From the NCBI RefSeq assembly GCF_000155635.1, contig NZ_DS990556.1, positions 2,124,052-2,188,051 on the forward strand: DNA of 64,000 bases. Reading direction: 5' to 3'. Each line of letters opens with the position of its first letter. Within the stretch, counting starts at the first letter, position 1. A program made the position numbers and the translations under genes. Below, in pieces: positions 3,331 through 43,517 of the stretch. The DNA is from Cyanobium sp. PCC 7001. GTDB lineage: Bacteria > Cyanobacteriota > Cyanobacteriia > PCC-6307 > Cyanobiaceae. Below the pieces are notes generated by a model, which did no database searches, was not told the origin of the DNA, and saw only the letters and a list, made by a program, of their open reading frames with translations.

Positions 3331-4591
3331 ATGACCCTCAGTCCTCCCGTTTTCAGCCCCGGTGCCGGCAGCTCCAGCCTCAGCTGGCAGGCCCTGGGGC
3401 TGGAGCAGGAGCTGGACGGGATGCTGCCGGAGCTGATCCAGCTGCGGCGCCATCTGCATCGCCACCCCGAGCTCAGCGGCCACGAGCAGCAGACGGCGGC
3501 CTTGGTGGCCGGGGAGCTGCGCCGCTGGGGCTGGCAGGTGCGCGAGGGGGTGGGACGCACCGGGGTGGTGGCCGAGCTGGGTCCCGCCACCACCCCGGGC
3601 GGGAGATCCCTCGCCCCTGGTGGCCCTGCGGGTGGACATGGACGCCCTGCCGGTGGAGGAGCGCACGGGGCTCGATTACGCCTCCACCGTGCAGGGTCTG
3701 ATGCACGCCTGCGGCCACGACCTCCACACCGGTGTGGGACTGGGGGTGGCCTGGTTGCTGAGCGCGGTGGCACGGCGCCATCCCGAGCATCTGCGCACCC
3801 GGGTGCGGCTGCTGTTCCAACCCGCCGAGGAAACGGCCCAGGGGGCGGCCTGGATGAAGGCGGAGGGTGCCACCGACGGGGTGGATGCCCTCTTCGGCCT
3901 GCACGTGTTCCCCAGCATTCCCGTGGGCTGCATCGGGGTGCGCAGCGGCAGCCTCACGGCCGCGGCCGGCGAACTGGAGGTGGAGGTGCTCGGCGAGGGC
4001 GGCCATGGCGCCAGGCCTCACCAGAGCACCGATGCGATCTGGATCGCCGCCCGGGTGGTGAGCGGGCTGCAGGAAGCCATCTCGCGGCGGCTCGACGCCC
4101 TGCATCCGGTGGTGGTGAGCTTCGGCCGCATCGAGGGGGGCAAGGCGTTCAACGTGATCGCCGATCACGTGCGCTTGCTGGGCACCGTGCGCTGCCTGGA
4201 CAACGACGTGCACGCCCAGCTGCCGGGCTGGATCGAGGAGACGGTGCATGCGCTCTGCCGCGGCCATGGCGGCGAGGCCCGGGTGCGCTACCGCTGCATC
4301 TCGCCGCCGGTGCAAAACGATCCGGCCCTCACCCAGCTGGTGGCCGCCGCCGGCTGCGAGCTGCTGGGGTCCGAGCGGGTGCTGTGGCTGGAGCAGCCCT
4401 CCCTCGGGGCGGAGGACTTCGCCGAGCTGCTCGACGGCACCCGCGGCACCATGTTCCGGCTGGGGGTGGCGGGCCCCCAGGGCTGCACCCCGCTGCACAG
4501 CAACACCTTCGCCCCCGATGAGGGCGCCCTGGCGGTGGGGGTGCGGGTGCTCACCCTGAGCCTGCTGCGCTGGATGGAGCAGCCCCGATGA
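3331..4591 (+). pseudogene. M20-family amidohydrolase, frameshifted in this sequence
   Basis: The protein is an M20D-type metal-dependent amidohydrolase (hippurate / N-acyl-amino-acid hydrolase-like). The first part reads in the frame of 3331 (ELIQLRRHLHRHPELSGHE, WQVREGVGRTGVVAELG). From about 3602 the conserved body continues one frame over: VALRVDMDALPVEE, the metal-binding HACGHDLHT, LLFQPAEE, GGHGARPH of the dimerisation domain, and SLGAEDFAE near the end. Reading past one G in the run at 3597-3604 (ccgggcggga) joins the two frames smoothly, giving about 419 residues, the normal family length. All metal ligands are intact, so either a single-base sequencing or assembly error or a very recent inactivation fits. 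Its stop overlaps the next ATG by four bases. Confidence 0.85.
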
Positions 4592-4839
4592 GTCCGGTGG
4601 CCACCACCCCATCGCGGCGTCTGCTCAACACCCTGCTGGCGCTCTCCGCCCCACTGCTGCTGCTGGTGGCTCTGGTGGTGCTGCTGCAGCGCCGCGGGCC
4701 CGACAGGATCCAGGCCGTGCCGGCCCTGGCGATCGGTGGAACCCTGCTCGGCACCAGCCTCCACAGCCGCCGGCGCCGGCGCCGCCGCCTGCTGGCCGCC
4801 CTGCGCAGCGGCACACCATCGGGCAGGCTGGACCCATGA
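4588..4839 (+). CDS. Small membrane protein, DUF3188-like
   Basis: This 83-residue protein has two hydrophobic segments (about residues 13-32 and 41-54) separated by a short basic loop QRRGPDR, followed by a strongly arginine-rich stretch of seven consecutive arginines in the C-terminal third. By the positive-inside rule both the loop and the tail would face the cytoplasm. Size, layout and the QAVPALAIGG segment resemble the short cyanobacterial family DUF3188; I assign it from memory of the pattern only. It is coupled by four-base ATGA overlaps to both neighbours, the M20 hydrolase upstream and the HEAT-repeat protein downstream, so the three are very likely one transcript. No function is known. 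Confidence 0.6.
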   Translation: MSPVATTPSRRLLNTLLALSAPLLLLVALVVLLQRRGPDRIQAVPALAIGGTLLGTSLHSRRRRRRRLLAALRSGTPSGRLDP

Positions 4840-5483
4840 GCGATTCCCCCCCCCCACCCGCCGATCCCGGTTCTGTGGACCTGCAGGCCCTCGAGGCGGC
4901 GATCCTCTCGGGCGACCCGGCCCGCTCCATGCCGGCCCTGGTCGCCCTGCGCGATCTGCCGGCCGAGCGGGCGGTGCCCCTGCTGCTGCGCGGCCTGGAG
5001 CAGTCGGCCTTCATCGTGCGCTCCCTCAGCTGCGCTGGTCTGGGCGTGAAGCAGACCGAGGCCGGCTGGACGGCCCTGGTGGAGGCGGTGCGCCACGACG
5101 AGGACGCCAACGTGAGGGCCGAGGCCGCCAATGCGCTGGTGAGCTACGGGCTGGCGCGGGCCTGGCCGGTGGTGCTGGAGGCCTTCCGCGCCGACAGCCA
5201 GTGGCTGCTGCGCTGCAGCGTGCTCTCGGCGGTGGCCGAACACCCGGAGGCGCAGCCGGCGGACCTGCTGGAACTGGCGGAGCTGGCCCTGGCCGATGCC
5301 GACGACACCGTGCGGGTGGGCGGCACCGAGATCCTGGGCCGGCTGGCCCAGCAGGGCGGCAGTGCCGGCGCCGATGCCGCCGATGCCGGCGTGGTGGAAC
5401 GGGCCCGGACCCTGCTGCGGGGCCTGCAGCAGGATGCCGACCATCGGGTGGTGGCGGCCGCCCTGAACGGCTTGCAGGGCTGA
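4836..5483 (+). CDS. HEAT-repeat protein
   Basis: The 215-residue protein is built from about five HEAT/Armadillo-like helical repeats, seen as recurring alanine/leucine helices with conserved V-R-x-x-A turns: SFIVRSLSCAGLGVKQ-like, DANVRAEAANALVSYG, QWLLRCSVLSAVAEH and DTVRVGGTEILGRLA. In cyanobacteria this architecture is found in phycobilin lyases and phycobilisome-degradation factors as well as in generic scaffolds; nothing here proves a bilin role. The N-terminus is a short acidic, proline-rich leader with no signal peptide, so a cytoplasmic location is expected. It overlaps the upstream small membrane protein by four bases and ends about 60 bases before the thiC riboswitch. Confidence 0.7.
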   Translation: MSDSPPPPADPGSVDLQALEAAILSGDPARSMPALVALRDLPAERAVPLLLRGLEQSAFIVRSLSCAGLGVKQTEAGWTALVEAVRHDEDANVRAEAANALVSYGLARAWPVVLEAFRADSQWLLRCSVLSAVAEHPEAQPADLLELAELALADADDTVRVGGTEILGRLAQQGGSAGADAADAGVVERARTLLRGLQQDADHRVVAAALNGLQG

Positions 5484-5541
5484 GACGCGGCTGGGGCTGA
5501 CCGCGGGCCGGTCTCCGGCCAGGCTTGCTAGGTTTTCGGAG

Positions 5542-7093
<1,552 letters not shown>

Positions 7094-37096: not shown

Positions 37097-39490
37097 TCAG
37101 GTGTGCAGCAGCATCTTGGAGAGGTTGGGCAGGCCCGCCCCCTGGTGGTAGCGGTCGCGGTGGAGGTCGGTGCAGTGCTGCAGCAGGATCTGTTTCACGC
37201 GCTCGGGATAGCCGATTAACTCGGTGCGCACCGAGAGGAAGGCGGCCAGGAGGCCGGAGATGTGGGGCGCGGCCATGCTGGTGCCCGAGAGGGCCACATA
37301 GAGCTCATCCACGCTCTTGGCCCTGTCGCGCTCCGGGGTGCGGCTGGGGTCGCTGCTGCTGCGGCAGGAGAGGATCCTTTCCCCGGGGCCCACCACATCG
37401 GGCTTGAGGCGGCCATCGGCGGTGGGGCCCCGCGAGGAGAAGTAGGAGGTGCCGTAGCGGTGGGGCAGGGTGGGGTGCACCGAGCCCACGGCGATCGCCT
37501 CTTCCAGGTTGGCCGGATCACCGATCGAGAGGTCGAAGGAGCGGGTGGAGCTGAAGCCATCCACCACGATCTCGCCGCTGCCCTCGTTGCCCGCGGCCAG
37601 CACCACCAGCACGCCCTGGCGCACCAGGCGCAGCAGGGAGGCGCACAGCGGTGAATCGCCGCAACCGAAGCTGGCCGGATCAAAGGACCCACCCAGGCTG
37701 AGGTTCACCCCCTGAATCGCCAGGCGCCGGCCGTTCTGGTTCTGCTGCCAGATGTGATCGATCGCCTTGATGATCCAGGCGTCGTAGCCGCTGCCGTTGT
37801 CGGCCAGCACCTTGTAGGTCACCAGCCGGGCCCGGGGCGCCATGGCGAGCATGTCCGGCCCAGCCGGATCCCCCAGCGCCTGCAGCCCTCCGGCGATCAC
37901 GCCCGCCACATGGGTGCCGTGCCCGTTGGCGTCGTTGCCGCTGCCGGGTTGCACCGGGCCTCGGGCGGTGCAGTCCCACTCGGCGGCGATCGTGCCGTCC
38001 GGGGCGAAGGCGGGGTTGTGGAAATGGGGATGGTGCCGGTCGATGCCCGTGTCGAGCACGGCCCAGGTGATCCCCTGGCCATAGGCGTTGTAGCCGAGCT
38101 GGGCGGTGCGGGCCTGCACGGTGTGGATCGAATCGCGGATCAGGGCCCGCTTCCTGCTGTTGCTGAACATCCGGTACACCGCCGGCGAGGATGCGCCGTA
38201 GTGCCGGCTCATCGCGGCCGCCAGGCGTTCCACCTCGGCGCGGTTGAGGTTCACCGCCACGTAGCGATCGAGCTGATCCTCCAGATGCACCGTGTCGGCG
38301 GTGATTGGATCCTGGGTGATCAGATCCTTGCTGCCTTTGGGGCTGAGCACATTGGTGTGGATCCACTCGAGCACGGTGCTGCGGGCGTCCTGCAGGGTGT
38401 CGCTGCCGCTGGCCGCAGCGGGGGAGCGGTCCACCAGTTCGATCAGCACCGGCACCCGGGCGGTGGCCTCCGCATCGAGCGCTTCGGCCAGGTTGCGGGT
38501 CACCGTCACCGGGCTCACCGGCTGGAAGCGGGCGCGATCCACCGCGGTCATCACGGTGGTCTGGGTGGCGGTGCGCGACAGGTAGCGACTCGCCGCGTGG
38601 GCCTTGCTGGGCGGCCACACGATTCCCTGCAGCCGTTCATCGCGGATGGGTGGCTTGCCGGTGGCGCTGTACTCGTCGGCCAGGCTCTGGTCGAGGCACA
38701 CGATGTCGCCGTCCTGGGCGATGTTCACCCAGCGCTTCACTCCCGGCGGGATCGGCAGCTTCGTCCCTGTTTTGCCGTGCCACGTCTGCAGCACGTCCGT
38801 CACCTGGGGGAGTCCCAGCGGCGAGCCGATGGTCACGTAGAGATCCACCTCCAAGGTGGTGCCCAGTTCCATCAGGGCCTGGTAGGTCACCATGCTGCCC
38901 TGGCTGTGGCCGATCACCACAAACGGGCCGCCGCCGGTGGTCACACGGTCTTTCACCGTCTGCACCATCCTCTGGCGCTTGGTCTGGTTGAACAGGAAGT
39001 CGTTCACGTCGGCCATGAACACCTTGGTGAACATCGCCGTCACCGGGCTCCACAACCCCTTGGCCTCCATGGAGAGCGCTGCAGCTCCACCCATCGGGGC
39101 GCCGCGCTGGGCCGCCGAGAGGGCTGCCGCCTCCAGCTCCTGGGTGAGCGCGGCCACGAACGCTGCCGATTCCTCCGGTGCGTCACTGGCCTGGATCGAG
39201 GCTTTCAGGAGCATGTCCGACCCCGGCAGAAGCTGGGCCCGGTCGTCGCCGATGGCCCGGGTGGAGATGCCGGCCGCTTCCGGGTAGCGCTCCCGGTCAA
39301 CCCAGTAGGCCATGCGGGTGCGCTCGCCCTGGTCGGCACCGAAGAGGGCACGATCCCACTCCGATCGCAACACACCCTCCGGGGGCATGTTCGAGATCCC
39401 GTGGCAGTAGATCACCGTGCGGGCTCTGCCGGGACGGGCAGGGGGATCGCCGGGGGTGTTGGAGGCTGACGCTCGCTTCGAGGTGGCCAT
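37097..39490 (-). CDS. Alpha/beta-hydrolase fused to a subtilisin-like S8 protease
   Basis: The 797-residue product has two enzymatic halves. Residues about 20-330 look like a lipase-type alpha/beta-hydrolase: TVIYCHGIS (25-33), nucleophile elbow IGHSQG with Ser196, acidic NIAQDGDIV (Asp260/262) and a plausible catalytic His298. Residues about 345-460 resemble a protease propeptide/linker (VAVNLNRAEVERLAA). Residues about 470-790 are a complete S8 peptidase: Asp480 (AVLDTGID), His524 (NGHGTHVAG), oxyanion Asn635 (AAGNEGSG) and Ser738 (SGTSMAAPH). There is no signal peptide, which is unusual for a subtilase and points to a cytoplasmic role or non-classical export. It borders the attC-cassette array. 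Function unknown. Confidence 0.9.
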   Translation of the reverse strand: MATSKRASASNTPGDPPARPGRARTVIYCHGISNMPPEGVLRSEWDRALFGADQGERTRMAYWVDRERYPEAAGISTRAIGDDRAQLLPGSDMLLKASIQASDAPEESAAFVAALTQELEAAALSAAQRGAPMGGAAALSMEAKGLWSPVTAMFTKVFMADVNDFLFNQTKRQRMVQTVKDRVTTGGGPFVVIGHSQGSMVTYQALMELGTTLEVDLYVTIGSPLGLPQVTDVLQTWHGKTGTKLPIPPGVKRWVNIAQDGDIVCLDQSLADEYSATGKPPIRDERLQGIVWPPSKAHAASRYLSRTATQTTVMTAVDRARFQPVSPVTVTRNLAEALDAEATARVPVLIELVDRSPAAASGSDTLQDARSTVLEWIHTNVLSPKGSKDLITQDPITADTVHLEDQLDRYVAVNLNRAEVERLAAAMSRHYGASSPAVYRMFSNSRKRALIRDSIHTVQARTAQLGYNAYGQGITWAVLDTGIDRHHPHFHNPAFAPDGTIAAEWDCTARGPVQPGSGNDANGHGTHVAGVIAGGLQALGDPAGPDMLAMAPRARLVTYKVLADNGSGYDAWIIKAIDHIWQQNQNGRRLAIQGVNLSLGGSFDPASFGCGDSPLCASLLRLVRQGVLVVLAAGNEGSGEIVVDGFSSTRSFDLSIGDPANLEEAIAVGSVHPTLPHRYGTSYFSSRGPTADGRLKPDVVGPGERILSCRSSSDPSRTPERDRAKSVDELYVALSGTSMAAPHISGLLAAFLSVRTELIGYPERVKQILLQHCTDLHRDRYHQGAGLPNLSKMLLHT

Positions 39491-39545: not shown

Positions 39546-39575
39546 TGCAATTCGTCCTTGAGCGAATGGTTAGTC
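39546..39575 (-). other. Half attC site at the array end
   Basis: After the GNAT gene the minus strand reads GACTAACCATTCGCTCAAGG, closely matching the R''-L'' half of class-1-integron-type attC sites (consensus like TCTAACAATTCGTTCAAG). The matching right half (L'-R') is not recognisable before the S8 fusion gene starts at 39490, so the site looks truncated where the array ends. Confidence 0.65.
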
Positions 39576-40061
39576 TGGCCCGGCCAGAGTGCGAGAGAAG
39601 ATCACTTTTGCCTCGCCCACTGCATAGAAATCCGGAACGCGGCCACGCTCCCTGTACCCTCGCTTGACGTAAAATTCTCGTGCCCGCGTCAGCGGAGGCT
39701 GGTCGCTGGTCTCGATTACCACCACCCTGGCACCAGCCTTGCTTGCCTCAGTCTCGACATGAGAAAGCAGGGCGCTGCCAACACCGCGGCCGTGCTGCGG
39801 AGGGTCTGCGCCGATCCACCAGACATTGAGAACACCCTCGGCGTACGGATCCGGTGCGAAGTAAGACCAACCAAGGGCCTTTTCGCCTGTTGAAGCTCGG
39901 CACGCCACAGCTGCATGCCCCTCTGGGAGCTCTTGGGCAGACAGTGTGTCCAGCACGCCACCCAACAAGCCCTCAGCGTCTGAAGGTGAGAAGAGTCCTG
40001 TCCTCACTGCCAGATCAAGGAGGTCTTGCCTTTCGCTCGCTTGAATCGGGGTGATGATCAT
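39570..40061 (-). CDS. GNAT-family acetyltransferase (cassette gene)
   Basis: The 163-residue product has the GCN5-related N-acetyltransferase fold. The acetyl-CoA pyrophosphate loop is QHGRGVGSALLSHVE (motif A), preceded by the strand VLNVWWIGADPP and followed by ARVVVIETSDQPPLTRAREFYVKRGY, the usual motif B. It probably acetylates a small molecule or protein N-terminus; many integron cassettes encode such enzymes. The ATG at 40061 lies about 26 bases after the core end of attC A, and its TAA stop is within the attC-type sequence GACTAAC. Base composition is less GC-rich than in host genes. Confidence 0.88.
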   Translation of the reverse strand: MIITPIQASERQDLLDLAVRTGLFSPSDAEGLLGGVLDTLSAQELPEGHAAVACRASTGEKALGWSYFAPDPYAEGVLNVWWIGADPPQHGRGVGSALLSHVETEASKAGARVVVIETSDQPPLTRAREFYVKRGYRERGRVPDFYAVGEAKVIFSRTLAGPD

Positions 40062-40086
40062 TGTTGACGAGTGAAGTTGGTGGGCG

Positions 40087-40177
40087 GCCTACTGCTGCCC
40101 CTGAATGGCAGGCAGGGGGCGTGATTGGCGCAGCTGAAAGACCGTGGTGGCCTGTCCACTCGAGAGGCTGGTTATGT
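40087..40177 (-). other. attC site A
   Basis: On the minus strand it begins ACATAAC (stop codon of the upstream cassette gene inside) and ends in AGTAGGC, a degenerate GTTRRRY core. The two arms are imperfectly complementary (ctgcccctgaatggcaggc against gcctgtccactcgagaggc). It shares both arm blocks with attC B, showing common origin. Length 91 bases. Confidence 0.7.
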
Positions 40178-40774
40178 GGGGTCTCCGCTGGTCTCAGATC
40201 GTATCGAGTCCAGCAGTGCCTCACCACGCGGCGATAGACGGTAACCCGTCCCGAGACTCTCGGTAAGCCCGAGATTCTTCAGCTTCCGAACATGAAGCTT
40301 GAACCGCTCCTTGTCCTGGCCGACAACACCACACACCTCGCCAGCGCGAACTCCCGGATGCGAGCTGAGGGCTTGCAATGTGCGAAACGTCCACGCCCCA
40401 TACGGCCCTCGTGTATCCAATTGACTCAGCCGGCTTTGCAGAGCCTGAAGTTCCGCCTCTGTATCCGCCGGCTTCTCGCGCAGCGTGACTCGGGGATCTG
40501 GAAGGACTGGTCCAAGTTCAATGCGATAGAGCGTACCCTCGGGCCGACGCTGCAATTCTTTCAGTAATGCCTCCCTTGAGACGTGTCCAGCGCGCTGAGC
40601 CTCTTCTACCGTGATCTGGTTTGGGGACACTGGCTCGACTGACTTGATCTTGATCTGCCCGACAGGAGTGAGCAACGTGCCACCCGCTCGTACGGATGGC
40701 CGTCGCCAGCGCCGAAAAGCCAGCGTAACGTCACCTCTACGGATGCCTTCAAGGACCTCCTTTCGAAAGAGCAT
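40172..40774 (-). CDS. ASCH/PUA-like protein with C-terminal winged helix (cassette gene)
   Basis: The 200-residue product starts MLFRKEVLEGIRRGDVTLAF, followed by RRWRRPSVRAGGTLLTPVGQIKI; this is the pattern of ASCH-domain (PUA-like, RNA- or nucleotide-binding) proteins, covering about residues 1-100. After a helical linker (about 105-122) comes GPYGAWTFRTLQALSSHPGV and a likely winged-helix domain (about 125-195: RAGEVCGVVGQDKERFKLHVRKLKNLGL). The fusion suggests a nucleic-acid-binding regulator. The ATG at 40774 is preceded by AAAGGGTG; upstream in-frame codons fall within the attC B core. The TAA stop is inside attC A. No close family member is recalled. Confidence 0.65.
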   Translation of the reverse strand: MLFRKEVLEGIRRGDVTLAFRRWRRPSVRAGGTLLTPVGQIKIKSVEPVSPNQITVEEAQRAGHVSREALLKELQRRPEGTLYRIELGPVLPDPRVTLREKPADTEAELQALQSRLSQLDTRGPYGAWTFRTLQALSSHPGVRAGEVCGVVGQDKERFKLHVRKLKNLGLTESLGTGYRLSPRGEALLDSIRSETSGDPT

Positions 40775-40795
40775 CAGATCATCACCCTTTCGGCC

Positions 40796-40884
40796 ACGCA
40801 ACGCTGCCCCTGAGTGGCAGGCAGGGACAACTGAACGGAGCGGGAAATCGACGCTGGCCTATCCACTTGAAGGCCTTGTTAGGC
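40796..40884 (-). other. attC site B
   Basis: The best-preserved site. On the minus strand it opens with GCCTAACAAGG (perfect RYYYAAC, containing the TAA stop of the isochorismatase-like gene) and closes with GTTGCGT, one position off GTTRRRY. The arms gccttgaaggccttgttaggc-type and cgctgcccctgagtggcaggc can be paired with a few bulged bases, as expected for the extrahelical bases of attC hairpins. Length 89 bases. Confidence 0.82.
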
Positions 40885-41451
40885 GGTCAGTAGTGGAAAT
40901 GCGACAGCTCCAGCCGCCGTTGCCCAGTTCTTGACCAACTCGGCGACGATGGCGTTCGTGCTTGTGAGGCCAACCCCAGCCTTCTCCATCCGGCGCCACG
41001 ACATTTCCTCGGCAATCTGGTTGGTCGAGCCGCAAGCGTCGCAAACCACCTTGACCATGAAGCCATCGTCGACTGCGCTGATGGCAGGCGCGACCATGCA
41101 CACGTCGGTCGTGACACCGGCCATCACGAAGTTCTTTCTTCGCGTGTTGCGGCACGCCTCTGCGAAGGCTTCGTCATCCCAGGCATTCACAACCCCTTGC
41201 CGTTTGATGCGGGCCTCGAATGCCTCGGGAAGAATCTCCTGGAGCTCGGGCATCAGCGGTCCCTGAACATTGACGTTGGTTTCCTGGCTTGACGTGAGGA
41301 CCACCGGCATCGCTGTACCCTTCGCAAACTTCGCCAGGATGATTACGTTGCGCTGCAGCAGCGGTAGCGGCGTGGTGCTGGCCCAAGTATTCGTGCCGAC
41401 CTGGTGGTCGATCAGGATCACTGCCGTGTCGTCGGTATTGAAATCCTTCAT
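40879..41451 (-). CDS. Isochorismatase-like cysteine hydrolase (cassette gene)
   Basis: The 190-residue product belongs to the isochorismatase-like hydrolase fold (YcaC type). The catalytic triad elements are visible: Asp in TAVILIDHQVG, Lys in the KRQ region after EARI, and the nucleophile Cys in MAGVTTDVCMVAPAISA. Members hydrolyse amides and related compounds; the substrate is unknown. I chose the ATG at 41451 (MKDFNTDD) because AGGAG lies seven bases upstream; an ATG at 41490 would add 13 residues. The TAA stop is within GCCTAAC of attC B. Base composition is lower in GC than in the host genes. Confidence 0.88.
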   Translation of the reverse strand: MKDFNTDDTAVILIDHQVGTNTWASTTPLPLLQRNVIILAKFAKGTAMPVVLTSSQETNVNVQGPLMPELQEILPEAFEARIKRQGVVNAWDDEAFAEACRNTRRKNFVMAGVTTDVCMVAPAISAVDDGFMVKVVCDACGSTNQIAEEMSWRRMEKAGVGLTSTNAIVAELVKNWATAAGAVAFPLLTA

Positions 41452-41516
41452 GTCTTGTCTCCTGATGGGATGCCTGTGATTCTCGCTCATTATGCTTGTG
41501 CGCTGTGGTGGGAGCC

Positions 41517-41631
41517 GCCAAACGCTGCCGCTGAGAGCTACCGCTGAGAGGTGGACATGGGCAATCGGGAAGCGACATTCTTGGGACGCATCGAATTGAT
41601 GGCTCCCATCCATTGCAGCAGCATGTTAGAG
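41517..41631 (-). other. attC site C
   Basis: On the minus strand from CTCTAAC (containing the original TAA stop of the methyltransferase cassette) to GTTTGGC, one position off the core consensus. The arms ATGCTGCTGCA and its partner GCGGCAGCG pair imperfectly. Length 115 bases. A short repeat (ctgagag) within it suggests a small internal duplication. Confidence 0.68.
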
Positions 41632-42193
41632 TTTTGTTGCAAGAACGATGCCACTTCCCACAACATCGTTGTGACACCGAGTCTGCAATCGGCATCGAAG
41701 GAGTTAATTCAACCTTCAACCTTCAACCTTCAACCTTCAACCTTCAACCTTCAACCTTCAACCTTCAACCTTGGCGGCGTGGCCCTCAGGCTAGTTTGGC
41801 TGCGGAAGCCTATCGTCAATGATGGAACGGCCTCCAGGCTTAGCCAATTGAAGCGCCTCTTCAAGGTAGCGGCACTTTCCTGTCCATGGATCTGCAAATA
41901 GGAAAGTCATGATGCTCAACCTCTAGTGATTGCAAGTAAGAGTCGCCGTCGGCATGCCCAATTTCCTGGGGCGAATCAGAGCCAGGATGATATCTGAGAA
42001 TCCCGATGAGTGACTCATTGTTGTCCACTGTGATCAAAAATGAAGACTGATCCATGTCTTCAAGAATCCATGCGGTTGAACGACCAGTTCCACAGCCAAG
42101 CTCAAGACATCGAGCTGAAGGCCTTGAAGTCTCAGGAGTCCTCACTGGCGAGCCAGTCAGTGGGTCTGACGCCATCGCGAATCCTGCTGCCAC
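41626..42193 (-). pseudogene. Broken SAM methyltransferase (cassette gene)
   Basis: The minus strand encodes pieces of a class I O-methyltransferase in several frames. Intact first part: FAMASDPLTGSPVRT and ARCLELGCGTGRSTAWIL (SAM motif I), then ITVDNNESLIGI and HADGDSYLQSL. At about 41905-41912 one extra T in a TTT run shifts the frame; the other frame continues LFADPWTGKCRYLEEAL, AKPGGRSIIDDRLPQPN, the expected motif. The next codon is TAG where the family usually has Trp (before PEGHAAKVE). Then comes a 63-base heptamer repeat, and a last piece GSGIVLATKL ending in the TAA of attC C. So a frameshift, a nonsense codon and a repeat expansion all disrupt it. The start (GTG 42193 or ATG 42175) is uncertain. 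Confidence 0.8.
41708..41770. repeat. Nine tandem copies of the heptamer TTCAACC
   Basis: The heptamer TTCAACC (GGTTGAA on the minus strand) is repeated nine times without a mismatch. It lies where the methyltransferase pseudogene reads AAGGTTGAA (Lys-Val-Glu), so the repeat probably grew from gene sequence. Because 7 is not a multiple of 3, loss or gain of single copies would change the reading frame. Confidence 0.98.
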
Positions 42194-42266
42194 AGAATCA
42201 TTCCCTCTGTGCTCTACAGCATTGGATTCGTTCAGCCTGATGCTGAGGCATGAGCGTCGGTGTGTC

Positions 42267-42354
42267 GCTTAGCCCGCTGGACGGATGATGGGCAACACCG
42301 ATGCGAGGGCCACGTACCATGCCGGTGCGAGTCGGCTCCAGCGAAGGGTTAGGC
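42267..42354 (-). other. attC site D
   Basis: On the minus strand it opens with GCCTAACCCTTCGCTGG (perfect RYYYAAC, containing the TAA stop of the VOC gene) and closes with GCTAAGC, a degenerate core. The arm CGCTGGAGCCGAC pairs with GTCCAGCG near the other end. Length 88 bases, similar to sites A and B. Confidence 0.75.
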
Positions 42355-43020
42355 GGCGCCTCCAGGCTGGCCAAGCAGGCTGATTCCAAGTGAAGGGAAG
42401 TGCACGCGAATGGAAGCAGGAGAAGAGAACTCAACAACTAGCTCAGGTCTAGATGACTTGTGGATTCGTACCAGTCCGGAGTCTCGCGCCGCATGCATCG
42501 GCGCAGAGGGCTGTTCAACGTCTGAAAGCCCAACCGACACAGCGCTCACCGAGCGCAACGGCAGCTTGTGAGCCCTGGGTTGCGCGGCCACGGCGCCTGA
42601 TTGCCGGGGCCAGCTCAGAGCAACCATCTCAGGCTCAGACAGTGCAGTTCCTTCCGCGAAGTGGATCCGCTTGCCCTTGGGAAGATACGCCGGTTCATAA
42701 GCCCAAGATGCGAATGGCAATGGGTAATTGCTTTCCGATTGCGAGGTGAAGTAGATGCCGAACGGATTTGCATGCTTGTCGCGCCCTGACCAGCGCTCCC
42801 AAAGGCGCGTTGGTCGGGTTCGAGGGGACGTCGCCTCTTGCTCGTCGTGTACCCACAGGAGCTCCAGGAAGCCGTGGTCGAAGAAGAATCGACGATTGGA
42901 AGTTCCTTGACCTGTATGACCATTGCCCGTGCCCTCAACCAGTCCGGCGTCAAGCAGCAATGTCGCTTCTGGAGCGCAAACGGAGGTACAGACGAAGATG
43001 TGATCGAGGCTCAGAGCCAC
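42349..43020 (-). CDS. VOC/glyoxalase-like protein (cassette gene)
   Basis: The 223-residue product starts MALSLDHIFVCTSVCAPEA, the first strand of a vicinal-oxygen-chelate fold with a metal-ligand His in LDHIFV, followed by RRFFFDHGFLELLWVHD with the second-strand His and Glu. The rest (about 95-223) includes a family-typical YPLPFASWAYEPAYLP segment and a second, weaker beta-alpha module near VVEFSSPASIRVHFP. The GTG at 43020 is the only start near the conserved N-terminus and lies about eight bases after the core of attC E. Its TAA stop is within GCCTAAC of attC D. Role unknown; cassette VOC proteins include resistance enzymes, but nothing specific is seen here. Confidence 0.78.
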   Translation of the reverse strand: MALSLDHIFVCTSVCAPEATLLLDAGLVEGTGNGHTGQGTSNRRFFFDHGFLELLWVHDEQEATSPRTRPTRLWERWSGRDKHANPFGIYFTSQSESNYPLPFASWAYEPAYLPKGKRIHFAEGTALSEPEMVALSWPRQSGAVAAQPRAHKLPLRSVSAVSVGLSDVEQPSAPMHAARDSGLVRIHKSSRPELVVEFSSPASIRVHFPSLGISLLGQPGGAA

Positions 43021-43027
43021 CCGTGCA

Positions 43028-43054
43028 ACCTAACGCTTGAATGAACTGTTAGAC
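43028..43054 (-). other. Shortened attC site E
   Basis: On the minus strand GTCTAAC - 13 bases - GTTAGGT. Both ends match the attC consensus perfectly, and the middle (AGTTCATTCAAGC) matches the usual left-arm spacer and L'' box, but the central stem and L' are missing. It looks like a deletion derivative of a normal attC. Confidence 0.75.
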
Positions 43055-43055
43055 G

Positions 43056-43517
43056 TTAGTGCCCCTTGATAAATGACCAATACCACGTCAAAGCGCAGAG
43101 ACAACTGGCGACGAGCAACGGAATTGAATTTCTCCAGCTCGCCGATCGTATCAAGACGGCTTGACTCTTGTTTCTCGGGTTGTAGAAGGCCGTGGCTTCT
43201 TGGCCAGGGTGAAGACCGGTCAGAAGTTTCGTGGCGCGTCTAAAGCTGAGGCTAGACGATGGCTGATAGCTCAATCGAGTGGAAGTGTACGTGTCAGGGC
43301 CAATCCTGTAGGAGTATTGGACCTTCACTGAATAGCTGACCGAGTCGGCGCCATCCGGGTTTGAAATCGTATCTTCTTTGATCCATGCGCGGTGCACAAC
43401 ACACCTCACAGGCAACCAGCCCCTCGATACGAGTCCGAGATAAAGCTTCCAGCACTCCCATCCGAGGAAAACCATTGAGGAGGCGAATGCGACTATTGGG
43501 ATTAGCGAGGAACTCAT
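43056..43517 (-). CDS. DUF3592-like membrane protein (cassette gene)
   Basis: The 153-residue product has a hydrophobic helix near the N-terminus (about residues 6-26) and another near the C-terminus (IPLLVASCLCALTWYW), with a beta-rich domain between them: VSYSVKVQYSYRIGPDTYTSTRLSY and GQEATAFYNPRNKSQAVLI. The GPDTYTSTRLSY and YNPRNKSQA segments are typical of DUF3592 proteins. The function of the family is unknown. The TAA stop lies one base before the attC E end; the ATG at 43517 lies eight bases after the GTTAGAC core at 43525. It is the first cassette of the array in reading direction. Confidence 0.78.
   Translation of the reverse strand: MSSSLIPIVAFASSMVFLGWECWKLYLGLVSRGWLPVRCVVHRAWIKEDTISNPDGADSVSYSVKVQYSYRIGPDTYTSTRLSYQPSSSLSFRRATKLLTGLHPGQEATAFYNPRNKSQAVLIRSASWRNSIPLLVASCLCALTWYWSFIKGH

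Follow-up and report, generated by a model that had tools for sequence, protein, structure and literature searches.

A lipase-like hydrolase fused to a subtilisin-like protease in Cyanobium sp. PCC 7001, a candidate single-chain protease-activated effector

In the bacterial defense systems Hachiman, AVAST, and canu, a partner protease, either a trypsin or a caspase, cuts the gating loops of a pro-nuclease of the metallo-β-lactamase (MBL) fold and thereby triggers defense; protease-activated pro-nuclease pairs have been described for Hachiman HamM, AVAST Avs1, Lamassu, DRT, and canu (PMC12799240). Alpha/beta hydrolases, in turn, are found beside caspases in predicted MoxR-vWA/VMAP and GTPase-centric conflict systems (PMC7159879), and a TPR-GreAB-C-PIN conflict system has also been described (PMC8195603). 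Here, we analyze a stretch of 64,000 nucleotides from Cyanobium sp. PCC 7001 (contig NZ_DS990556.1; hereafter the window, whose first letter is position 1), in which a single gene encodes an N-terminal lipase-like alpha/beta hydrolase followed by a C-terminal subtilisin-like protease of family S8. We assign a probability of about 55% to the reading that this fusion carries a protease and its pro-effector in a single chain and belongs with the protease-activated conflict or defense systems, its activation, substrate, and anti-phage activity being predictions from comparative evidence.

Like the pairs of PMC12799240, the fusion couples a protease to a hydrolytic effector, and the MBL partners of its S8 relatives score as LmuA, Avs1a, or RTasMBL in five plasmid records. 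Unlike those pairs as described there, its protease is of the S8 type, its effector is an alpha/beta hydrolase instead of an MBL-fold nuclease, and both reside in one chain; the words ‘subtilisin’ and ‘subtilase’ are absent from the main text of that paper. With the systems of PMC7159879 it shares an alpha/beta hydrolase beside a peptidase, and relatives of its hydrolase abut caspases, but its own partner is an S8 protease, and no caspase, MoxR, vWA, GAP1, or STAND component of the published descriptions was found with it. Its hydrolase shares the catalytic triad and a tree with ten caspase-paired hydrolases found here. One caspase-paired relative, at locus L164, resembles the TPR-GreAB-C-PIN system of PMC8195603: its caspase protein continues into a match to HTH_upst_double_PIN and a PIN-TPR-GreABC match just under the cut-off. 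The initial annotation of the window, made from the sequence alone, had called the function undescribed. This holds for the fusion, for which no paper on an S8–alpha/beta hydrolase fusion was found in the open-access literature searched, but not for its context, as hydrolase–caspase pairing has been described (PMC7159879) and protease-activated pro-nucleases have been shown (PMC12799240).

Other S8 proteins are more distant comparisons. The fusion resembles IetAS in having an S8 peptidase, here in a proposed defense context, but the IetS models match it at E 4e-11 against 4e-58 for the generic ‘subtilase’ model, and a scan of the nine neighboring proteins turned up no IetA. In Foldseek, the S8 half of the model matches intracellular subtilisins best (e.g. 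6f9m, 2wwt), with which the fusion shares the lack of a signal peptide by eye, a feature that also sets it apart from a secreted subtilisin or lipase; unlike the intracellular subtilisins, it has a long propeptide-like segment and an N-terminal hydrolase. If our proposal is true, bacteria would use subtilisins, alongside trypsins and caspases, to activate immune effectors inside the cell. The finding names a candidate effector class, the alpha/beta hydrolases, and adds S8 to the candidate protease families, with test cases that include one in a single polypeptide, suited to a direct assay of cis-activation.

Two conserved enzymes in one chain

The fusion gene and its parts, all on the minus strand, are as follows.

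37097–39490, minus strand: fusion protein gene, 797 aa, ATG start at 39490; full-length relatives are known
38537–39418, minus strand: alpha/beta hydrolase domain, residues about 25–318 (sub-cut-off Abhydrolase_6 match, model and VIA match to lipases and phospholipase A2, residues invariant in the family)
39041–39280, minus strand: helical, variable insert within the hydrolase that may act as a lid or gate, residues about 71–150 (model helices, raised dN/dS, D65–S196 spacing)
38903–38905, minus strand: codon of the nucleophile Ser196, in GHSQG (family and fusion alignments)
38705–38707, minus strand: codon of Asp262, the putative triad acid of the hydrolase (family and fusion alignments)
38597–38599, minus strand: codon of His298, the putative triad base of the hydrolase (family and fusion alignments)
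38096–38500, minus strand: propeptide-like segment between hydrolase and protease, residues about 331–465 (low-confidence model, fast evolving)
37133–38080, minus strand: S8 subtilase domain, residues 471–786 (Pfam PF00082, E 2e-46; PADLOC ‘subtilase’ PDLC03014, E 3.9e-58)
38051–38053, minus strand: codon of catalytic Asp480 (fusion alignment)
37919–37921, minus strand: codon of catalytic His524 (fusion alignment)
37586–37588, minus strand: codon of oxyanion-hole Asn635 (fusion alignment)
37277–37279, minus strand: codon of catalytic Ser738, in GTSMAAPH (fusion alignment)

The open reading frame is real, and the two enzymes named in the initial annotation were recovered in it. The Pfam family Peptidase_S8 spans residues 471–786 with the triad and the oxyanion Asn present, which places this half in the S8 family. 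For the hydrolase half, Pfam gives a weak match to Abhydrolase_6 (E 0.0045; 18.1 bits, with the cut-off at 26.3 bits). A model of this half over 340 residues, with a mean predicted local distance difference test score (pLDDT) of 72 and a predicted TM-score of 0.76, has an alpha/beta hydrolase core and a helical insert with helices at residues 91–100, 105–128, and 136–143. In the VIA alignment, this model reaches Z scores of 10.5–11.8 to many chains of lipases, LCAT, lysosomal phospholipase A2, DDHD proteins, thioesterases, and cutinases; as these scores are nearly tied, the substrate class of the hydrolase cannot be chosen from them. Foldseek with the hydrolase model alone returned nothing under E 0.001. 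The full-length AlphaFold model has a mean pLDDT of 56 and a poor S8 half because the alignment is shallow, and we used it just for the order of secondary structure. In this model, linker residues 346–443 form a predicted beta-alpha-beta-alpha-beta arrangement (pLDDT about 41–73), and the linker segment has no Pfam match to the I9 propeptide family, so that the label ‘propeptide-like’ seems fair but weak. The first 30 residues were inspected by eye for a signal peptide; none is visible, as first stated, with residues 1–24 lacking a hydrophobic stretch. Distant relatives carry basic Lys/Ala-rich tails in place of a signal peptide, and the fusion protein looks cytoplasmic.

Both active sites are conserved. 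The fusion alignment comprises 37 rows, of which 34 are distinct, the repeats being the window’s own copy and the cut-off copies L073 and L105. Across the rows, S196, D262, H298, D480, and H524 are invariant, and N635 and S738 are absent solely in the frameshifted copy L019 and in the two copies cut off by the end of the locus. A separate alignment of 37 hydrolase family rows keeps S196, N256, D262, H298, and Y303 in every row, whatever the partner, and H30 in all rows except perhaps L165, a partial row with a doubtful match at this position. D260 is not conserved there and the triad acid is D262, which corrects the one detail of the annotated active sites that did not stand.

Selection acts on the two enzymes and the segments around them to different degrees. 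Medians of the ratio of non-synonymous to synonymous substitution rates (dN/dS), taken over 153 pairs from 18 cyanobacterial fusion copies, are 0.04 and 0.19 for two parts of the hydrolase core and 0.145 for the S8 domain, compared with 0.33 for the helical insert (71–150) and 0.385 for the propeptide-like segment. The low values indicate that both enzymes are maintained, while insert and linker are held more loosely.

How widespread is this architecture? Searching for the domain pair across genomes, as the initial annotation had advised, we found it to recur. Of 300 genomes in the same family, 76 show some match and 22 carry a full-length fusion, at 79–87% identity to the window protein (100% for the window’s own). 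The remaining family matches are one frameshifted copy (G194), one remnant (G005), one two-gene relative (G111), and for the rest mostly other S8 proteins. Within its own genus, the fusion occurs in 2 of the 13 genomes listed, and in the window’s own genome its S8 domain is the sole match to PF00082 at E 0.001 or better. A scan of GTDB contigs returned 25 loci. Of these, 21 belong to Cyanobium/Synechococcus relatives, and the other four (two Gemmatimonadota, one acidobacterial metagenome-assembled genome, and one Pseudoxanthomonas) match at 42–44% identity over nearly the whole length. This near-full-length conservation across phyla, together with the purifying selection, argues that the fusion is more than chance. 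The frameshifted copies L019 (Synechococcus sp. WH 5701) and L049 (from G194) look alike, and L050 (from G005) is a C-terminal remnant; the fusion gene therefore appears dispensable in some lineages.

Partners of the protease and hydrolase halves

The relatives of the S8 half are coupled to several types of effector. In a tree of 25 S8 rows, the fusion’s S8 falls inside a clade of 18 sampled rows (support 100/99). Nine of these rows are fusions; in six others the S8 stands beside a hydrolase gene, in two beside an MBL gene, and in one it is fused to a TIR domain. Five further S8s of the same cyanobacterial family (L052–L056) and two Streptomyces S8s lie outside. The tree includes only nine two-gene or TIR-fused S8s, leaving out L175–L177 and most Rhizobium records, and carries long-branch warnings for L055, L053, and the TIR row L173. 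On plasmids, an effector-type partner is present in 23 of the 24 listed records with an S8 identity of at least 35%, namely an alpha/beta hydrolase gene in 17, an MBL protein in five, and a fused TIR domain in one; the exception, H126/L060, lies outside the clade. These counts come from the 60 of 138 matching plasmid records that were listed, with a single S8 place read in some records that hold a second one, such as H107, H117, and H118. In the 17 best plasmid records (Rhizobium, Sinorhizobium, Rhodococcus), the hydrolase gene directly follows the S8 gene in 17/17, a series dominated by Rhizobium relatives that represents far fewer than 17 independent events. The gap between the two genes is 10–20 bp in the plasmid loci read; plasmid pRHL1 of RHA1 carries three such pairs, one of them beside a TIR protein, and the cyanobacterial genome G111 has separate S8 and hydrolase genes with a 145-bp gap.

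In five loci (L172, L174, L175, L176, L177), an MBL protein is encoded 8–14 bp after the S8, with LmuA as the best PADLOC match, followed by Avs1a and RTasMBL, which makes these loci candidate S8-activated pro-nuclease systems. Further genes accompany them: the S8-MBL pair is preceded by the Pycsar-type genes for PycC, an E2 protein, and PycTIR in L174, followed by a Tle1-like phospholipase as third gene in L172, flanked by an upstream FRG and a downstream SIR2 gene in L176, and preceded by patatin genes in L175 and L177. The stretches concerned are L172:4164–8302, L174:350–7025, L175:2832–7099, L176:2614–10241, and L177:1363–6965. The TIR-fused case, from a conjugative plasmid of Rhizobium, is a single open reading frame (L173:4653–6611) that joins an S8 peptidase to a TIR domain at its C-terminus. 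DUF3616 proteins recur near members of the S8 clade on rhizobial plasmids (L057:11598–12632, L058:2819–3724, L176:7148–8230).

Seen from the other side, the hydrolase family of the fusion, here called A3, is found next to several types of protease. Its tree comprises 37 of 127 A3 hits, after weak, duplicate, and short-flank rows were dropped, and has long branches at L160, L161, and L164. Twelve S8 fusions form one clade (99/99), as do three trypsin-paired rows, and ten caspase-paired rows need three changes. The caspase partner is confirmed by Pfam in L135, L141, L157, L159, and L164, with L137 just below the cut-off; the label rests on record annotation plus phmmer in L156 and L158 and on phmmer alone in L142 and L166, the latter without a Pfam match. 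A trypsin partner is confirmed by Pfam in L133 (with TPR-S), L162, and L167, and in fused form in L160, as is a NACHT-like/WD partner in L161. Among plasmid regions, a protease accompanies the hydrolase in 9 of the 12 opened, the other three having NACHT or AAA neighbors (two by annotation only); because the 12 were chosen among the rows listed for 51 and 38 matching records, some for a caspase or serine-protease annotation, this share is biased upward. The order of partner genes varies, with the hydrolase before a trypsin or C25 peptidase and after a caspase or S8. The spacing between D65 and S196, which brackets the insert, is 131 residues in the window protein and 126–180 in protease-coupled rows versus 103–129 in partnerless ones, with slight overlap and confounded by clade; rows with NACHT or AAA neighbors have 72, 111, and 122.

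A second, separate hydrolase family, A2, also pairs with S8 proteases, in the two-gene type. At the plasmid loci L148, L149, L150, L151, and L153, a gene for a CHAT, CHAT-nSTAND1, or C25-type peptidase comes after the A2 hydrolase, with one gene in between in L148 and L149. We considered a common origin of A3 and A2, but the hhalign alignment spans 65 columns at the nucleophile elbow, with a probability of 9%, and we treated them as separate families.

Proposed activation and its alternatives

The coupling of one S8 clade to several effector types, and of one hydrolase family to several protease types, points to a relation of protease to substrate. The initial annotation had suggested that the protease activates the hydrolase, and this is the best inference, because the two active sites are conserved in several phyla, the protein appears to be cytoplasmic, and the S8 relatives are repeatedly coupled to effector-type enzymes. 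In the mechanism that we propose, a cytoplasmic S8 subtilase would be kept in check by the propeptide-like segment, as in zymogen control, until a cue such as infection or cell damage unleashes it. The protease would then cleave the linker, the helical insert that would cover the active site of the hydrolase, or both, and this cut may free or ungate the lipase- or phospholipase-like hydrolase, which could attack the cell’s own lipids or esters and so halt growth or phage production. More tentatively, and with somewhat less confidence than not, the fusion may be a subtilisin-based one-gene immune effector in which the S8 domain activates the lipase-like hydrolase of its own chain. In this view, it would be one branch of an S8 clade that, on plasmids as on chromosomes, works as an exchangeable activator for different pro-effectors, whether alpha/beta hydrolases, MBL nucleases, or TIR, and S8 would be a partner class next to the known ones of trypsins and caspases.

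Several results weigh against activation in a conflict system. No cleavage site could be named in the fusion protein, and the Pfam/NCBIfam scan found no sensor or oligomerization domain in it. No immunity or defense gene was recognized beside the fusion, where the family scan covered the window’s nine nearest proteins. Of the 21 clade loci, 12 have the gene beside one shared chromosomal block that looks like housekeeping, not defense, and both catalytic cores evolve slowly. Fused copies are also rare: with the hydrolase half as query, they were found in 2 of 244 genomes of the cyanobacterial phylum, 1 of 349 in the phylum of Pseudoxanthomonas, and 3 of 200 in that of a Gemmatimonadota genome, the center genomes, already known carriers, being included in the last two counts. 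Within the hydrolase tree, eight partnerless rows form one clade with a detected protease partner in 0/8, ‘no partner’ meaning no match within 600 bp to any of 13 protease queries by phmmer. A less selected genome sample gave a protease gene adjoining 5 of 14 stand-alone hydrolases and none beside the other nine; the 14 stem from 34 non-fused matching genomes and are mostly the best scoring, with a broken frame in G567 and a 5-kb contig in G651. These two counts serve as the internal control for protease–hydrolase adjacency, in place of a background rate. In the S8 of L172, the GTS motif of the catalytic serine was not found by motif search. Finally, the fusion copies on two virus contigs (L168, L169) probably lie in host flanks.

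The chromosomal setting and the partnerless clade make a housekeeping or stress enzyme the main rival: an intracellular S8 for protein turnover and an esterase for lipid, thioester, or storage compounds that act together on membrane or granule material, with no conflict role. The purifying selection would also fit such an enzyme, as would the stand-alone hydrolases that have no detected protease partner and neighborhoods that look metabolic by eye. We nevertheless consider it unlikely, as the fusion is patchy even among close relatives (the 22 of 300 family genomes and 2 of 13 in the genus given above), one copy is frameshifted and one is a remnant, and relatives in the S8 clade are repeatedly coupled to proteins that score as defense effector families.

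But does the protease have to act on the hydrolase at all? In a two-enzyme toxin, each active site would hit its targets independently, the fusion would only ensure co-production, and the hydrolase would stay unprocessed by the protease. Both sites are intact, and the partners in relatives are separate genes in varying order, so that strict cis cleavage is not needed. We regard this as improbable: a single hydrolase family and a single S8 clade occur with several unrelated partners, the pattern that an activator–substrate pair would be expected to show, and protease activation has a precedent in the systems described in PMC12799240.

Least probable is an immunity regulator modeled on an IetS-like subtilase role, in which the hydrolase would sense or cleave a lipid or ester ligand and thereby control S8 as the real effector cutting host or phage proteins: the PADLOC IetS models do match the S8 domain weakly, but the nine window neighbors scanned include no IetA-like ATPase, and the partners found downstream of S8-clade genes are effector enzymes rather than sensors.

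Genomic surroundings of the fusion gene

The shared chromosomal block was read from the sequence as what we take to be accD, leuB, phosphoribulokinase, and similar genes; the flanks differ in the remaining clade loci and in the window. In several loci with the block, the 3' side of the fusion gene has small genes that vary between loci. Two IMG/VR virus contigs hold fusion copies. In L168 (3960–8313), the edge of a provirus-like contig shows an integrase-like gene, a transfer-messenger RNA (tmRNA), and then the fusion gene, which looks like a tmRNA insertion site beside a host copy. Phage carriage was considered and rejected for this contig because the fusion lies beyond the integrase-like gene (3960–5222, named from the sequence) and the tmRNA (5327–5723) and so probably belongs to the host DNA that borders the provirus. 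The same integrase-like gene is present in L169 (3972–5222), which looks like L168.

The initial annotation had also placed the gene next to what it took for a cassette array, a location that by itself explains nothing. In the window, a strict scan for attC-like sites (RYYYAAC...GTTRRRY, paired ends) found 0, against a mean of 0.2 over five shuffles, and in relatives it found few (L004, L017, L022); by eye, no attC-like end is present in the 25 bp between the fusion stop and the next gene. Upstream of the fusion, at 39570–43517, the window carries small minus-strand genes (GNAT, ASCH, isochorismatase, a methyltransferase piece, glyoxalase-like, DUF3592), and GTTAGGC-like motifs can be seen there by eye. 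The 7-bp unit CAACCTT is repeated nine times in tandem at 41710–41772. In L004, L006, L012, L017, and L022, a variable run of small genes (GNAT, SnoaL-like, and cupin-like by eye) lies 3' of the fusion, ahead of a conserved P450-like gene, an arrangement that resembles a cassette hotspot.

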